Assembly (NCBI RefSeq): GCF_000001735.4 | Contig: NC_003071.7 | Location: forward strand, 13,075,151-13,139,150 | Length of the DNA: 64,000 bases | Direction: 5' to 3' | Origin: Arabidopsis thaliana | Taxonomy: Eukaryota > Streptophyta > Magnoliopsida > Brassicales > Brassicaceae | Shown: piece by piece, positions 24,336 through 36,838 of the stretch | Numbering within the stretch: position 1 is the stretch's first letter | Layout: each line of letters starts with the position of its first letter | Notes under the pieces: generated by a model | What the model was told of the DNA's origin: nothing | What the model saw: the letters and a program-made list of their open reading frames with translations, nothing else | Databases searched by the model: none | Position numbers and translations under genes: made by a program

Positions 24336-26221
24336 TTAAATAACGGAAGATGGAAATGCAATGAGAGGGAACTTTCGGCAAACATCGAGACCAAAAGCTT
24401 CAGTTAGATCAGGTTGATCCCCATTTGGTCCAGCCTCGGCCCTCCAGTCAAATCGGCCTACAAGGTTGGCCACTGTCACCTCTACCAAACCCAAAGCAAG
24501 ATTTATCCCTGGACAAATCCTTCTCCCTGATCCGAATGGGATGAAGTTTAAATCTTTTCCATGATAATCCAAAGTTGAATCTAAATGTCTTTCTGGTTTG
24601 AATTCTTCTGCATCCGGTCCCCATATCGCGGGGTCTCTTTGGATGGCCCAAGCATTGATTATCACCTACACATGTTTCAAATACAAGTTTAGCCAAATCA
24701 TTTTTTCTATATATTGGAATATATGATGTAGCTAACGTACACCATGTTTTAAGAATTTGATTTGATAGAAATTAGTTTACCTCGGTTCCTGCGGCTATGT
24801 TATATCCCTTTACTTTGACATCTTCACTTAATAATCTGGGAAGTATTAGTGGAAGAGGAGGATGCACCCGAAACACCTCTTTAATCACGGCTTTCAAGTA
24901 TTTCATATTTTCAACATCTTTTTCTTTTATGTATGAACCATGTGGCCTAATGGTTGACCGAATCTCGTCTTGGAGTTTCTTCATAACATTTGGATTTCTG
25001 ATCAGCTCCGTCATTATCCATTCTAGTAGAGTTGAACTTGTTGACGTCCCTCCTATAAACATATCCTGATATATATATGAAGTAGACATTTTACATGTCA
25101 TTAGTCCAAAATAAAAATGTTGCATTAATTTGTTAGAATTATTAATGAATTGGTTTATAAATGATCATACCAATATCATGAATTTGATGTCGTCTCTTTG
25201 AGCTTGGAATCCAATACTCTTCTCGCTTTCGATTGATAACAGTATATCGACAAAGTCCTCTTTATGATTACCTGCCTCTAAATGTTCTTGCACCACTTTG
25301 TCCATAAGATCGCTAAACCCTTGACTTACTTCCTTTATTCTAGCATTGAAACCGTTGATCCTGTCTATCCATGCCAAAGCCGGGACATAGTCCCCGATTG
25401 GGAACTCGCCTAAAAGCTCCATGATCTGCCTCACTCGCTTCTTGAGATCCCTTGCGGTTTCGTCCTCACTATGTTTTCTTCCCAAGGCAATTCTACTCGT
25501 AACATCGCTTGGGAGAGTAACAAAGAGTTCGCTCAGATTTTCTGACGAAGAAGAAGAACTTGCTTTCTCCAGCTTCTTGATCATTTCATTTAGCTCTTCT
25601 TCTCTTATCTTCTCAAAGGACGCAACCATTTTGTTCGTGAGCAGATTGAGAATGCATACACTCTTCATCCAAGACCAGAGAAAAAAAACATTATTAGTTG
25701 ATTAAAGGATATACAAAAGTATTAGAATTAGTTAGTTCATGTGTGGGTGCAAGTTTCCGACGAAAATTTTATAAAAAGATAATAAATATACATATAAGTT
25801 AGAGAAGAACTAAAGAGTGCTAGTAATGAAATACCTTCATCTGTCTCCAATATTCTCCATAGGGACCAAACACCACATCACGCCCCCCATTCATAAGCCC
25901 ATGAACGGCTTTTGATCTCGGGCGGTTGGCAAACTTAAGATCGTGTGTTTTCAATACCTCTTGAGCTGCTTCCCCGGAGGATACTACGAGTATGGGGACA
26001 CGGCCAAAATGAAGGAGCATGAGTGGTCCGTACCGAAGGCTTAGGGAATGGAGGGAACGGTGAGGGTGGAGGCTAAGCTGGTGGAGGTTACCAATCAACG
26101 GAAGCCTCCATGGAGATGGTGGTAAGTTCACTTTGTTGGCGGTTCGTTTGAGGAATTGTTTAAGCAAGAAAAGGGTAATGAGGGTCGTTAAGCACAAAGA
26201 GACCATCAATATCATCTCCAT
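24336..26221 (-). CDS. CYP71A12: Cytochrome P450 CYP71A12 (indole-3-acetaldoxime dehydratase)
   Basis: Four exons: 26221-25835, 25662-25171, 25065-24781 and 24665-24336, giving 497 residues. An N-terminal membrane anchor ([14 protein letters not shown]) is followed by the Pro-rich hinge [16 protein letters not shown]. The I-helix motif is [10 protein letters not shown]. The K-helix ExxR is E356-VF-R359, the PERF-like motif is FKPERH, and the heme signature is [11 protein letters not shown] with Cys439 as thiolate ligand. By established knowledge, CYP71A12 and CYP71A13 convert indole-3-acetaldoxime to indole-3-acetonitrile on the ER, feeding pathogen-induced camalexin and indole-3-carbonyl nitrile metabolism. 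I chose the MEMI start; an in-frame ATG six codons upstream (26239) is also downstream of the TATA box. All introns match CYP71A13. Confidence 0.95.
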
Positions 26222-29987: not shown

Positions 29988-30082
29988 ATTAGAGCACAAA
30001 TCGGGATCGCACCGAATTGTTTCACGTTGTCTCTAACAGACCGGCAGTCCCGTGCTGAACATTCCATTAGAGCACAAATCGG
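29988..30082. repeat. 17-bp direct repeat pair
   Basis: ATTAGAGCACAAATCGG occurs at 29988-30004 and 30066-30082. The first copy lies directly next to the end of the kinase relic. It may be the footprint of an insertion or a small duplication at the junction. Confidence 0.7.
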
Positions 30083-30169
30083 TTAGGACACATAACAATT
30101 TCTTAGTCATTGAAACCGAAACAAGGAAAATTCTCAAAAAGAAGGGTAATGCAGGAATAGTGCTCTTGT

Positions 30170-30547
30170 TGTAATTCTCACCATAGACTCTCTGTTTTGC
30201 TCACAACCTCTGTTTTTGTTCTTGTTAAAACAGAAAGTACAAGAACACGTTTAAACACTTTAATGTCTACATTGTTAATAAACTTGGATACCTTACACAA
30301 CACAAAGACACACATACATATACTACTTGACACTATTGCCCACTTGCACTTAGACCTAATCATACTCTTACTTAGACTATACTCCTATGTTCTAGGCACT
30401 CTTACACAAGCCTCCTACTTGTGTTGGAACTCTAACAACACTTGCAACTACTCTTACCTAGACTTGACTAACTTAAACAACACTTTACTCATTTGGGCCT
30501 AACATAACAATTAGCCCAAGTACTTATTACAAACAACAAGCCCAACA
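30170..30547 (-). mobile_element. Candidate LTR remnant (copia-like)
   Basis: On the - strand this 378-base segment begins TGTTGGGCTTG and ends AATTACA, giving the TG..CA ends of an LTR. It has the low-complexity, promoter-like composition typical of plant copia LTRs. No protein-coding retroelement domain, clear primer-binding site or target-site duplication was found. It could be a truncated or solo LTR, or not an LTR at all. Confidence 0.35.
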
Positions 30548-30745
30548 TCTTTATTGACTTGTTCTTCTCCTCCTTTGTAGCTGGCCTCTTCACGACTTCT
30601 TCTTCTTCGTTTCACTTTGCTATGATCTTCTTCTCATGGATTCTTCTTCTTCTTTTGCAGATTCAATCAAGGATTCAATAAGACTGGACCAAGATCCACA
30701 TACAAAGATAATAGGCTAGACCCAACAAAAAGCCCACTTAAGAGT

Positions 30746-30895
30746 ATGCCCACTTTTGAAGGAACTGAGACTAGGAAGAGGAAGAGGAGATGGATCGGCG
30801 CTCTGTCGAATATTTTGCCGAGAACAGGCTCCAAGACGGCAAGGTTTCTCGTGATAGAGAACGCTACCAAGGAGGTTCACCAACACATTCTCTAA
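30746..30895 (+). CDS. Unrecognised 49-residue ORF
   Basis: The ORF starts MPTFEGTETRKRKRRWIGAL and is basic near its N-terminus. It lies downstream of the LTR-like segment and is surrounded by non-coding sequence. No family is recognised. It could be a gene fragment brought in with a transposon, or chance. Confidence 0.2.
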   Translation: MPTFEGTETRKRKRRWIGALSNILPRTGSKTARFLVIENATKEVHQHIL

Positions 30896-31980
30896 CATCG
30901 ATTTGATTCTACTATTTTAAAATAAATTTTTGACTTTACACAGTCAACAGTTTAGTTGAAAATTAACATGAAATTTTAGTTTGCACAATCGCAGAAGTCT
31001 AGTTTACGACATGAATATACACCAATTGTGACGTCAATACAAGCTATCACCAACCTTGTTTATACTATTCTTGCAAATGGCCATGAGTACAAAAGTCTAC
31101 GAGAGGGCTCACAAATTTTTTAACCAAACAAAGATGGTGGGGCGACGAAAAAAATGATGGAAAAGAAATATTTTATGCAAAAATCACTTATGTTTCTACA
31201 TTTAGGCAATACTTAATTAGTGTAATGAAACAAAATGAGACATTTTCCTAGAAAGCTACGTAAAAAAAAAGTTTATTAAATTAATCCTCTCTTCTTCTAA
31301 TTTTGTCCCAACCAAGTCAGAATTCATAAGTTCACTTCCACCAACAAGCTTCTAGTCCAATTGAATCAAAACCGAGTCTAAAATTAAAGAGTTATTGAAC
31401 CGGAGTCGAACCATAAACTAAAGTAAACTTTTTTACTTGGTTTGCCTTAAACGTGATTATCATAAGGTGATCCACATGTATATTTAAATAAGCATTGACT
31501 CAATGCTCCATAAGATATTATTCGAATTATAGTCGCCAACATAGTAGAAAGACTATGACAGAAGCTTTAGGGTTTTATGCTCTAAAAGTATTCCTCCAAA
31601 AGCTTGTTGTAGAGTATAAAATGAGGTCATTATTATTCACACTCACGTATGGTAATGGAACAAATCTATGTAGATGTCGTATATAGAGATAGAGAGCAAG
31701 AAGGCGCATGGCAAGGTAACGTAAGAGTGTGCATGAACTGTTCCCACCACGTGTGAAACGTGAGTTGCGACTAACTTCCATGAGGTTGGCTCACGTGCGG
31801 GCTATGACGTGCCACGTTGTACAAATTTGTGGTCATAACCGTTGCCATGTCACACTTGCATTCTCTTTGCTTTTCACAAAGGGCAAAAAAACCAAAAGAC
31901 TTTGTAGATAGAGTCATAGAGAGAAACAAAAGGAATATTTTTTTTTTCTTTTTGGTATTTCACTTGTCGTTTTATGTATC
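30896..31980. other. Spacer and distal promoter region of the IMA3 gene
   Basis: No coding signal is convincing. At 31748-31818 there is a dense group of ACGT-core sites: CACGTG at 31748-31753 and 31792-31797, ACGTG at 31807 and CACGTT at 31813. This is the only such cluster I saw in the window. Confidence 0.5.
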
Positions 31981-31983
31981 TAA

Positions 31984-32227
31984 GAGCATCCTCAATGGTA
32001 GTTTTTAAACCTAAGTCTTTTAATCAAAATTAAAGTATAAATATAGATAAATAATATTTTTTATTATGGATCTCTTAAATTTAGTGAAACCAAAACCAAT
32101 TATCTCTTAACTAAGAGATAATTTGCCTAGGTTTCATCAAAGTTAAGAGACTTATGAATATTTAAATCATATAATTTGTTTATTCTTTGTTAAGAAACTT
32201 GTTTAAAACCCCCCATTAAAGATGCTC
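31984..32227. mobile_element. MITE (PIF/Harbinger-like)
   Basis: A 244-base non-coding element has inverted ends GAGCATCC (left) and GATGCTC (right), flanked by the 3-bp direct repeat TAA (31981-31983 and 32228-32230). An internal palindrome (AATTATCTCTTA/TAAGAGATAATT, around 32097-32125) adds secondary structure. The size, TAA target repeat and AT-rich interior fit a Harbinger-type MITE. It lies between the G-box cluster and the IMA3 core promoter. Confidence 0.65.
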
Positions 32228-32693
32228 TAATTAAGCATGTTGATTATCAATTCAATGTGGTACCTTTGATTATGCATAAAACTATGTATCTTCTTCTTTT
32301 TTTTTGGATTTGAGAGGAAAACATGCATGTGTGTTTATACATACATATAGACGCACATTGACGTCATATCAAGAAAAATTAAGTCAAGTGTAAAATGTAA
32401 GAAAAAGTAATATAATTTTAAGAGTATTGAGTCAATTTTCGTTCAACTCCATGACACAATGGTTTTGACCTTATAGATTTATTTTTTCTTAAAAGAAAAT
32501 ATATTACTGCAGATCTGATGATAAATTTCTAAACCGTAAACTTTATACATTTTCATTTCATAGCTCGAGACTGTAAATAGAGTATATATATAGTCTATAC
32601 AATAGCTATCAGATTTTTTCTTTTAAGTTCCTGATTTATTCATACTTTTTCATATAACGATTCCTAAACTTAGATTCAACATCACTGAGAACT

Positions 32694-32701
32694 TCACGTG
32701 A
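32694..32701. promoter_or_regulatory. Palindromic G-box upstream of IMA3
   Basis: TCACGTGA is a perfect palindromic G-box about 220 bases upstream of the IMA3 start codon and 125 bases upstream of its likely TATA box. Subgroup IVc bHLH factors that activate the iron-deficiency response bind such elements; occupancy here is inferred. Confidence 0.55.
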
Positions 32702-32825
32702 GAATAAATATTTATTTTCTTTTCTCACTATATAAATAATTATTTTCTACAACTTTTAATATTAACCTTACAAAAAAGCGTGTGCTGTTGATTATTCTTG
32801 AGAATCTAGGTATACCTGAAAATGC

Positions 32826-32832
32826 TATAAAT
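32826..32832 (+). promoter_or_regulatory. TATA box of IMA3
   Basis: TATAAAT lies 86-92 bases upstream of the IMA3 ATG. It predicts transcription from about 32857 and a leader of roughly 60 nt. A second TATA-like run at 32729-32738 is further away. Confidence 0.5.
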
Positions 32833-32917
32833 TCAGAGGCAGTACATGAGCTCTATAACTGCAACCAACACCAAAAATCTTCTACTAAATCAGAAACACA
32901 CAAAACCCTAGTTAAAA

Positions 32918-33061
32918 ATGGCAGTGGTGAGTCACAACAACGCAGAAGGCAGGCTATACGAATCAACTCAGACTTGGCCAATTGCTTACTTACAAATTGG
33001 TGGCCAAGAGAACGGAGGAGACGATGACGACGATGACTGTGACGTTGCACCGGCGGCTTGA
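32918..33061 (+). CDS. IMA3: IRON MAN / FE-uptake-inducing peptide IMA3 (FEP1)
   Basis: This is a 47-codon gene starting MAVVSHNNAEGRLYESTQTW and ending GGDDDDDDCDVAPAA. The C-terminal block of Gly, six Asp, Cys-Asp and a terminal APAA is the diagnostic consensus of the IMA/FEP family. In the family, this C-terminus binds the BRUTUS-type E3 ligases and the Asp run is linked to iron binding. The peptides spare bHLH IVc factors from degradation and so switch on root iron uptake; they move in phloem as a systemic iron signal. There is no signal peptide. A longer ORF in another frame (32782-33027) overlaps it and hides it. The ATG context AAAAATGGC is good. I recognise it as At2g30766. Confidence 0.95.
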   Translation: MAVVSHNNAEGRLYESTQTWPIAYLQIGGQENGGDDDDDDCDVAPAA

Positions 33062-34758
33062 TCATTTGCATATTATCGTATGCTACTATAAACTTAAAAT
33101 AACAGTCATTTAATTAAGTAGTAATTGTGCTTCTTGACATAGAACCACACACACACATGTAGCTGAAGTTGTAGATCGTGCCTGTATTTATCCATGTCGC
33201 AAACAGGCTTTTATTACTAGATAAACAACATTTTTGACTTTCGAGTGTTGAGAGACTAGCTAGCTTTAAGTAACAATATAATGTATCGTGTGACTATATT
33301 AATGAAATAATATTACATTATGTACCCAAGATTTGTGGTTATAGTATGATCAACACTATATAATTCTCATATCCATTTATCTTTCTTTTGGCTTTTTTGT
33401 TTTCCTTTTTCGAATTATATTAGCTGGAAATTTTAAATTTTGTACAGACACATTGTTTGTTCTCATCTTCCTTTGCTCAGCCTTTTGTGGTCTCTACCGC
33501 TTAGGACCACTTACTGCAAATCTAGAAAATTAAAATATATGACTAGCTAAAATGTGAGGTATATTGAGAAGTGAGTTCTTAAAACTACTTGGACTTGTCT
33601 ACTTAGAATTTGAGACATTATAAGTACAATTGATGTTAATCTAAAAGTGTAGAACATTGTTAATTTCTTGAACAGCTGTTAGCCAACAATGACGGACGAT
33701 ACGATCATTGATCGAAGAGGCGATTTTGTTTCACATCGATCAGTGGATCTCTTGGCGAAGTACATGACCAACCACCAGATGATCAGAAGCATTCAACACC
33801 TCTCTATTTATCCCAATTTGTAAGTACATATATGTATGATAGTATGTATGTATGTATATATTATGAGTACATATACATTAGAAAATACTATTAACTTTCA
33901 AGTCGTTATAGTAATGGACAATATTATTCGTAATTATCAAAAGCGCTTTTTCATTTTCTATCTGAACCTAATGCCTAGCGAGTTGAAAACATAGCTACCT
34001 AATAGGCTACTACTACACAATCTTGAAGCACAAATAATACAACGAAACGTCCCTTGGGTATGAGATTATTTAGAAGTTTCATAAGATTCTAGTCCTTATT
34101 CAATTGTGCCCATCAAGCACAAAGTACGGAAGCGATAGGAAGGACGTCACAGTCCTGTTTTGATAATCTAATGATCGTAGAAAGCGTTGGGTGCTTTTAA
34201 GTTTTTTCTTTCGCCTAAATATTTTAAGGTCTTTTGTCAGGAATAGAAATATGATAAAGTCTATTGAGTTTGTAAGACCTATGTATATTGGGTCCGGATG
34301 CAATGCTTTTTTACTCATGCGCATTCAATAGAAGAATTTGTTATCAGTGAACGAGTACAATGTCAATATATTTAACAAATTATTTAAAACCTTTTAAATA
34401 TGTGCATAGTTTTTTTTCGTACTCGGATAGAAATTAATAATAACAAAAATTACTGATTTGATAAAATGAATTTCGCTTTGTAAATAAATTATATATAATT
34501 CAAAATCCTCATCGTCGAAAACAATTTTAAAATAAAACAACCAAAGATATTTTCCACAAATTAAATTAATTTTAGTTTTGAATTCAGATATATAACAAAC
34601 AATGATATATAAGAAATATTTCATTAAATAAAAAGATATTCTTAACTGAATTTATTTATTAATTTGGATATACTTATTACCGAAATAAAGGATTGTTTAT
34701 TTCTTACAACTCGTCTTATTAGTGTTGCATAGCATAACAAGGTGAAAGAGAAAACATG
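33062..34758. other. Spacer between IMA3 and CYP71A13
   Basis: This stretch contains the IMA3 3' UTR and AT-rich sequence. One exon-like ORF (33689-33823) is listed separately. From about 34660 the sequence resembles the 3' flank of CYP71A12. Confidence 0.45.
33689..33823 (+). CDS. Unrecognised 44-residue ORF, exon-like
   Basis: The ORF reads MTDDTIIDRRGDFVSHRSVD and ends IQHLSIYPNL. Its composition is clearly more balanced than the AT-rich flanks. It is preceded by an acceptor-like TTCTTGAACAG (33665-33675) and overlaps a consensus GTAAGT donor at 33819. It may be one exon of an unannotated or decayed gene. No family is recognised and no partner exon was found. Confidence 0.3.
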   Translation: MTDDTIIDRRGDFVSHRSVDLLAKYMTNHQMIRSIQHLSIYPNL

Positions 34759-36838
34759 TTACACAACCGAAGATGGAAATGCAATGAGAGGGAATTTGCG
34801 GCAAACATCGATACCAATGGCTTCAGTTAGATCAGGTTGATCCCCATTTGGTCCAGCCTCTACCCTCCAGTCAAATCGGCCTACAAGGTTGGCCACTGTC
34901 ACCTCTGCCAGACCCAAAGCAAGATTTATCCCGGGGCATATCCTTCTCCCTGATCCGAATGGGATGTAGTTCAGATTTTTTCCGTGATAATCTAAACCTG
35001 AATCTAAGTGTCTCTCCGGTTTGAATTCTTCAGCATCCGGTCCCCATATCGCAGTGTCTCGTTGGATCGCCCAAGCATTGATTATCACCTAGACATGGTT
35101 CCAATACAATTTAACCGAAATCATTAGCTATGTATGTATCAACAGGATGGTAAATAATTTTTAAGATTTATAGCTAATACCCTTTTTTAAGTAACCAAAT
35201 TTGGCAAACATATTTTTTTACTGTATAACCATGACTAATTAAGAGGTATATATGTAAAGTTATGTGTGAACTGCTAGGGTAAATTCTTGCAAATGATAAT
35301 TAACCGTGATAAAAATAATTTTGAAATTATTTATGGTGTTTCTTTGCATATAAGAATTTAATTTGATAAGAATAAGTTTACCTCTGTCCCTGCGGCTATG
35401 TTATATCCCTTTACTTTGACATCTTCACTTAAGAGTCTGGGAAGTATCATTGGAAGAGAAGGATGCAACCGAAGCACCTCTTTAATCACGGCTTTTAAGT
35501 ATTTCATATTTTCCACTTCTTTTTCTTTTATGTATGAACCATGTGGCCTAATAGTTGACCGAATCTCGTCTTGGAGTTTCTTCATACTCTTTGGACTTCT
35601 GATCAGTTCCGTCATCGTCCATTCTAGTAGAGTCGAAGTTGTTGACGTTCCTCCGATAAACATATCCTGATATGAAGTAGAAAAGTTACATGTCATTACT
35701 CATAGAAATATTTCATATGTGACCATATATTATAAATGAATTGGCTTATAATGATCTTACCAAGATCATAAATTTTATGTCGTTTCTTTGAACTTGGAAT
35801 CCACTGTTCTTATCTTTTTCGATTGATAACAATATATCCACGAAATCCGCTTTATCGTTACTCGCCTCTAAATGTTCTTGCACCACTTTGTCCATAAGAT
35901 CGCTAAACCCTCGACTCACTTCCTTAATTTTATTATTGAAACCACGGATCCCATCTATCCATGCCAATATGGGGACATATTCCCCGATCGGGAACTCGCC
36001 TAAAAGCTCCATGATCTGCCTCACTCGCTTCTTGAGATCCCTTGCGGTCTCGTCCTCGCTATGTTTTCTTCCCAACGCAACTCTACTCGTAACATCGCTT
36101 GGTAGAGTTATAAAGAGTTCGCTCAGATTTTCTGATGAAGAAGAAGAACTTGCTTTCTCCAGCTTCTCGATCATTGCATTTACCTCGTCTTCTCTTACCT
36201 TCTCAAAGGATTCAACCATTTTGTTGGTGAGCAGATTGAGAATGCATACACTCTTCATCCAAAACCAGAGAAAAAACGTTATTAGTTGATTAAAGAATAT
36301 AATAAGTTAAATATGAAAACATATTAGAATTTCTTAGTGCATGTGTGGGTGCAAGTTTTCGATCGACGAAAACAAAATAATAAGTTAAATAGGAAAAAAT
36401 AGTCTTAAAAATAAAAGATAAAAGAGAAATTTGAAAAGGCTAGTGAAATACCTTCATCTGTCTCCAGTATTCTCCATAGGGAGCAAACACAACATCACGT
36501 CCACCATTCATAAGCCCATGAACGGCTTTTGATCTCGGGCGGTTCGCAAATTTATGATCATGTGTTTTCAATACCTCTTGAGCTGCTTCACCGGAGGAGA
36601 CTACGAGTATAGGGACACGGCCAAAATGAAGGAGCATGAGTGGTCCGTACCTGAGACTGAGGGACCGGAGGGAACGGTGAGGATGGAGGCTCAGCTGGTG
36701 GAGGTTTCCGATCACCGGAAGCCTCCATGGAGATGGTGGTAGGTTCACTTTAGTGGCGGTTCGTTTGAGGAATCGCCTCAGCAAGAGAAGGGTTATGAGG
36801 GTCGTTAAGCACAAAGAGATACTCAATATCATTTCCAT
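34759..36838 (-). CDS. CYP71A13: Cytochrome P450 CYP71A13 (indole-3-acetaldoxime dehydratase)
   Basis: Four exons: 36838-36452, 36252-35761, 35666-35382 and 35088-34759, giving 497 residues, the known length. Motifs are the membrane anchor, hinge [17 protein letters not shown]-helix [10 protein letters not shown] (about 297-306), ExxR E356/R359, FKPERH, and heme loop [11 protein letters not shown] with Cys439. By established knowledge it converts indole-3-acetaldoxime to indole-3-acetonitrile and on toward the cysteine adduct in camalexin biosynthesis, working with CYP71B15/PAD3 on the ER. It is induced by pathogens through WRKY33. It is a tandem paralogue of CYP71A12 about 10.6 kb away, with intron 3 (35089-35381, 293 nt) longer than the 115 nt of its paralogue. 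The MEMI start was chosen over an in-frame ATG six codons upstream (36856). Confidence 0.96.

Follow-up and report, generated by a model that had tools for sequence, protein, structure and literature searches.

Flanking genes and a family motif place a 47-codon frame on Arabidopsis chromosome 2 as the iron-signalling peptide gene IMA3/FEP1

IMA3/FEP1 belongs to the peptides through which flowering plants tie iron uptake to iron status and has been known since 2018, the year in which the IMA/FEP family was named (PMC10167411, PMC10638237; published work is given here according to the available portions of the papers cited). Published work has IMA/FEP peptides and bHLH IVc factors competing for BTS/BTSL, so that these factors are spared and the iron-uptake cascade is switched on; the peptides are themselves ubiquitinated and degraded by BTS (PMC10167411, PMC10032465). 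Interactions among FEP1/IMA3, BTS and bHLH factors were reported by Li et al. 2021, as cited in PMC9226616, and the same source states that IMA1 lacking its last 7 or 17 residues does not bind BTSL1 in yeast and that BTS does not conserve the HVC site found in BTSL1. Grafting suggests that IMA/FEP acts as a shoot-to-root signal, with mobility unconfirmed as of the 2023 review PMC10167411. The locus At2g30766 is called FEP1 in PMC9226616 and in the expression table of PMC9716356, and IMA3 in PMC8786333 and PMC9465050. In 2013 it was among the seven unknown proteins most up-regulated in Fe-deficient leaves, and IMA1/FEP3 and IMA2 were likewise induced (PMC3719017); IMA1-3 are induced up to 20-30-fold in roots under Fe deficiency (PMC9465050). 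In rice, OsIMA1 and OsIMA2 have a similar function through interaction with HRZ (PMC10167411, PMC10032465).

The DNA analysed, referred to as the window, is the 64-kb stretch at 13075151-13139150 of chromosome 2 (contig C2), and the genome searched comprises 119,662,809 bases in 7 contigs. An ATG-started ORF of 47 codons followed by a TGA stop lies on the plus strand of the window (Table 1) and encodes the peptide MAVVSHNNAEGRLYESTQTWPIAYLQIGGQENGGDDDDDDCDVAPAA, with the N-terminus MAVVSHNN and the C-terminal end GGDDDDDDCDVAPAA; the earlier note on this DNA had described this frame and its C-terminus, and both are exact to the base. The two strands of the window hold 378 ORFs that start with ATG and encode 25-100 aa; no other one of them terminates in APAA, and no other has DDDD among its final 20 residues, which marks this ORF as more than a chance frame. 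Its length of 47 aa was set against the definition of IMA peptides in PMC10167411. A search of Pfam-A returned 0 families up to E 10, which says only that the peptide has no Pfam match, searches of solved structures with the IMA3 sequence gave best E values at chance level (0.57 and 0.47), and an Rfam search over 30000-36000 of the window gave nothing useful.

Table 1. Positions of the IMA3/FEP1 coding sequence and of neighbouring features, numbered from the first base of the window
Feature	Position	Strand	Basis or remark
Two further G-boxes, CACGTG	31748 and 31792		
G-box CACGTG, candidate bHLH site	32695..32700	+	Putative function
TATA-like TATATAA, 189 bases upstream of the start codon	32729..32735	+	Putative function
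81-codon overlapping ORF, judged not to be a gene	32782..33027	+	GTG start, no in-frame ATG
Minimal uORF (Met-Leu-stop) in the putative leader	32822..32830	+	Sequence
21-codon uORF in the IMA3 frame	32846..32911	+	Stop at 32909-32911, then 6 bases, then the IMA3 ATG
IMA3/FEP1 (At2g30766) coding sequence, 47 aa and stop	32918..33061	+	ORF, homologues and flanking primers
C-terminal motif with Asp run and PAA end; BTSL1-binding region in the paralogue IMA1	33014..33058	+	Sequence, alignments and PMC9226616

The identity of the ORF follows from its neighbours and its motif. P450 frames flank it on the minus strand, where four pieces match Pfam p450 and the N-terminal two share 93% identity over 153 aa. 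AGI codes are numbered along the chromosome. The qPCR primers printed for CYP71A12 (At2g30750) and CYP71A13 (At2g30770) in PMC4508518 each have one perfect match in the window, at 25495-25514 and 25361-25381 for the former and at 34918-34937 and 34723-34745 for the latter. All four primers thus match without a mismatch and bracket the ORF, and the ORF between them is therefore identified, on sequence grounds, as At2g30766, IMA3/FEP1. The Pfam matches and the published primers likewise confirm the location between two camalexin P450s that the earlier note had given, and its reading of the ORF as an IMA/FEP gene stands, with a C-terminus common to the IMA1/IMA2-type peptides of chromosome 1.

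Protein searches at E ≤ 10 returned seven proteins with the window peptide as query and 12 with the relative P0002 as query, the query's own entry being counted in each. In the resulting alignment of 12 sequences, the 11 relatives are 64-89% identical to the window peptide, and 14 of the 18 invariant columns lie within the C-terminal GGDDDDDD-x-DVAPAA. Predicted proteins with the 47-aa frame occur in Eutrema, Camelina, Brassica, Arabis and six further relatives, and the IMA3-like proteins of Eutrema salsugineum (LOC112081469), Camelina sativa (LOC104749805), Brassica napus (LOC106402815), Brassica rapa (BRARA_C01572) and Arabis alpina (AALP_AA6G089900) are labelled uncharacterized or hypothetical. 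These alignments indicate that the IMA3 frame is conserved in Brassicaceae; gene identity, intact frame, conservation and family motif are all results of the present analysis. The frame of one relative, P0004, continues for ten residues beyond APAA (WSCAYYRMLQ), and its PAA end is therefore not free.

A scan of the A. thaliana genome for the codon pattern D-x-A-P-A-A-TRR gives 10 matches, and the reversed control gives one. The ten comprise six Asp-rich peptides in which the APAA end is free, one fragment and three unrelated sequences. The six Asp-rich peptides are two IMA1/IMA2-type ORFs and two 56-codon ORFs on chromosome 1, the window ORF, and an ORF at C2:18446561. The pattern Y-D-Y-A-P has 13 matches genome-wide against three in the control, six of them IMA-like and seven unrelated, and adds one new IMA-like ORF, which lies at C1:17388144 and extends beyond APAA. 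The two IMA1/IMA2-type ORFs are taken here to be IMA1 (At1g47400) and IMA2 (At1g47395). An eight-row alignment of the window peptide, two Brassicaceae relatives and five other A. thaliana ORFs is invariant at G33, D36-D38, D42 and A44-P45-A46-A47. A search of the genome with the window peptide found only itself and IMA1, the latter at an E of 0.46, which is chance level, and the kinship with IMA1 therefore rests on the C-terminal motif. Neither C-terminus pattern has a match, genome-wide, near AT1G07367, AT1G07373 or AT1G09505 at the approximate chromosome 1 positions that these codes presumably occupy, and the census of paralogues is therefore incomplete. These codes are IMA4, IMA6 and IMA5, respectively, in PMC9465050.

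Besides the IMA1/IMA2-type pair, the chromosome 1 cluster holds three further IMA-like ORFs, at C1:17388144, 17389325 and 17392791, one of which has a C-terminal extension after APAA. The only further named gene that adjoins the IMA1/IMA2 codes in PMC9465050, as far as its available text goes, is AT1G47401 (IMA8), and the IMA-like ORFs of the cluster outnumber those that can be matched to named genes. The ORF at C1:17392791 shares 98% identity with a protein labelled hypothetical in a different A. thaliana record. An IMA-like fragment at C1:17391701-17391802 on the minus strand (pattern match at 17391698) has an internal TAA and is probably a decayed IMA copy. On chromosome 2, the ORF at C2:18446561 has 40 codons, ends in EGDDDDDVVYDYAPAA and is an IMA-type peptide that is possibly the listed IMA7.

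Two longer frames overlap the 47-codon ORF and were weighed as its rivals. The 81-codon ORF that the earlier note had pointed out is present, and a 72-codon ORF at 32853-33071 runs antisense. Both are longer than the 47-codon ORF and the antisense frame starts with ATG, so that either might be the true gene, with the 47-codon ORF incidental. A GTG-started, ATG-free frame is a bacterial-style ORF, however, and would not ordinarily be picked by gene finders for plants. The 81-codon ORF begins with GTG and contains no in-frame ATG; it is therefore no rival gene in a plant and was rejected both as a gene and as a cause of mis-annotation. Against both frames, the 47-aa frame is found again among the predicted proteins of several Brassicaceae, in a homologue search that covered this frame only, and bears the family motif common to the chromosome 1 paralogues, and it is extremely improbable that either longer frame is the gene. 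The suggestion of the earlier note that the peptide gene is hidden under a longer ORF and tends to be missed does not hold, since the 81-codon frame lacks an ATG and the locus carried an AGI code by 2013: At2g30766 appears in the Fe-deficiency RNA-seq results of that year and was therefore annotated before the family was named. That the ORF is an IMA-like decoy or a pseudogene without function is favoured by little beyond the redundancy of eight IMA genes. The frame is intact and conserved, the transcript is iron-induced (PMC9465050, PMC3719017), and interaction with BTS is reported (Li et al. 2021, cited in PMC9226616), and the decoy reading deserves next to no credence.

A further proposal concerns the putative leader. 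Two upstream ATGs, at 32822 and 32846, stand in the IMA3 frame and open uORFs of two and 21 codons. In P0002 the corresponding sequence reads MSSITATNTKNPLVNQKHTKP-QLK-MAVMSH..., with Gln at the position of the Arabidopsis uORF stop, which gives a fused frame of 71 aa that matches the uORF peptide at 19 of 21 residues. The uORFs could lower the translation of IMA3, perhaps in an iron-dependent manner, and loss of the uORF stop could extend the N-terminus in some relatives. By the start-context rule for positions -3 and +4, however, the context of the 32846 ATG is weak (T at -3, A at +4) and that of the main ATG is strong (A at -3, G at +4). The fusion is found in only one of the 12 aligned sequences and may reflect no more than a leader conserved in a close relative and a gene predictor's choice of the longest ORF. 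For OsIMA1 of rice, the leader alters the translation of a reporter with iron supply, but no repressive uORF was found at the start tested (PMC11440899). Repression by these uORFs is accordingly regarded as unlikely, and the more specific proposal that the 21-codon uORF sets the amount of IMA3 by iron or stress state, being fused to IMA3 in at least one relative, is similarly doubtful. Among the open-licence PMC papers found on this subject, judged mainly by title and the start of the abstract, none treats a uORF of IMA3/FEP1.

Upstream of the putative leader, three of the window's six CACGTG sites fall in the last 1.2 kb before the IMA3 start codon. Under random placement, at least three of six would fall in a given 1.2 kb with a probability of about 1e-4, a value that overstates the clustering because this stretch was picked after the sites had been seen, and the total of six in the window is not unusual, as 21 of 100 shuffles reach it. 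Regulation of IMA1-3 is assigned to bHLH105, bHLH115 or bHLH121 in PMC9465050, with which the upstream G-boxes fit if they function in IMA3 as candidate bHLH sites, whereas PMC9226616 conflicts with this in reporting a suggestion that FEP1/IMA3 is repressed by IVb or IVc factors.

The Pfam search covered 14 of the window's 21 stop-to-stop frames of at least 150 aa, together with one 44-aa ORF, coverage outside which short-exon genes fall. The matches are to P450, Zein-binding, SPARK, 4HBT, PPR, helicase/ankyrin and DIOX_N families, with three of the 15 frames unmatched, and among these 15 window frames Pfam identifies no other known iron regulator. The statement of the earlier note that this is the only systemic iron-signalling gene in the window met no counterexample in this loose test; the role of IMA/FEP itself as the mobile systemic signal was unconfirmed as of 2023 (PMC10167411).

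Taken together, the ORF is almost certainly IMA3/FEP1, the gene of a peptide induced under Fe deficiency that would occupy BTS/BTSL and spare bHLH IVc factors. Fe deficiency would cause strong transcription of IMA3/FEP1 in leaves and roots, and the Asp-rich, PAA-ending C-terminus of the 47-aa peptide would occupy the hemerythrin E3 ligases BTS/BTSL, which would otherwise mark the factors of bHLH subgroup IVc (bHLH34/104/105/115) for degradation. Once spared, these factors would activate bHLH Ib genes and FIT and, through these, FRO2, IRT1 and coumarin genes, and on the return of iron BTS would promote degradation of the IMA3 peptide. The induction of IMA3, its interaction with BTS and its degradation are taken from the literature, and the PAA end of IMA3 would contact BTSL by analogy with IMA1; the different end of the window peptide (CDV for YDY) and the lack of a conserved HVC site in BTS count against this reading. 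IMA3/FEP1 is thus a real but already known gene, and its recovery illustrates that motif reading of raw sequence can find a short peptide gene; the only new angles are the in-frame uORF and the extra IMA-like frames in the chromosome 1 cluster.

Compared with known systems, OsIMA1 and OsIMA2 of rice are likened to IMA3 by their published function, not by sequence. IMA1/FEP3 and IMA2 have 50 aa and, like the window peptide, an Asp-rich C-terminus that ends in APAA, whereas the N-terminal halves of the IMA1/IMA2-type ORFs are little like that of the window peptide and overall identity is 33 and 35%. The C-terminal end is YDYAPAA in IMA1/IMA2, where BTSL1 binding was mapped in IMA1, and CDVAPAA in the window peptide, which keeps the Asp run and PAA and has CDV for YDY. 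The IMA3-like proteins of Brassicaceae share a nearly invariant C-terminus with the window peptide, except that two Brassica rows have Ser in this motif in place of Cys. With IMA3/FEP1 (At2g30766) itself, compared by slot and motif rather than by the published peptide letters, no difference was found, and the chromosomal slot between At2g30750 and At2g30770 and the family motif both agree.
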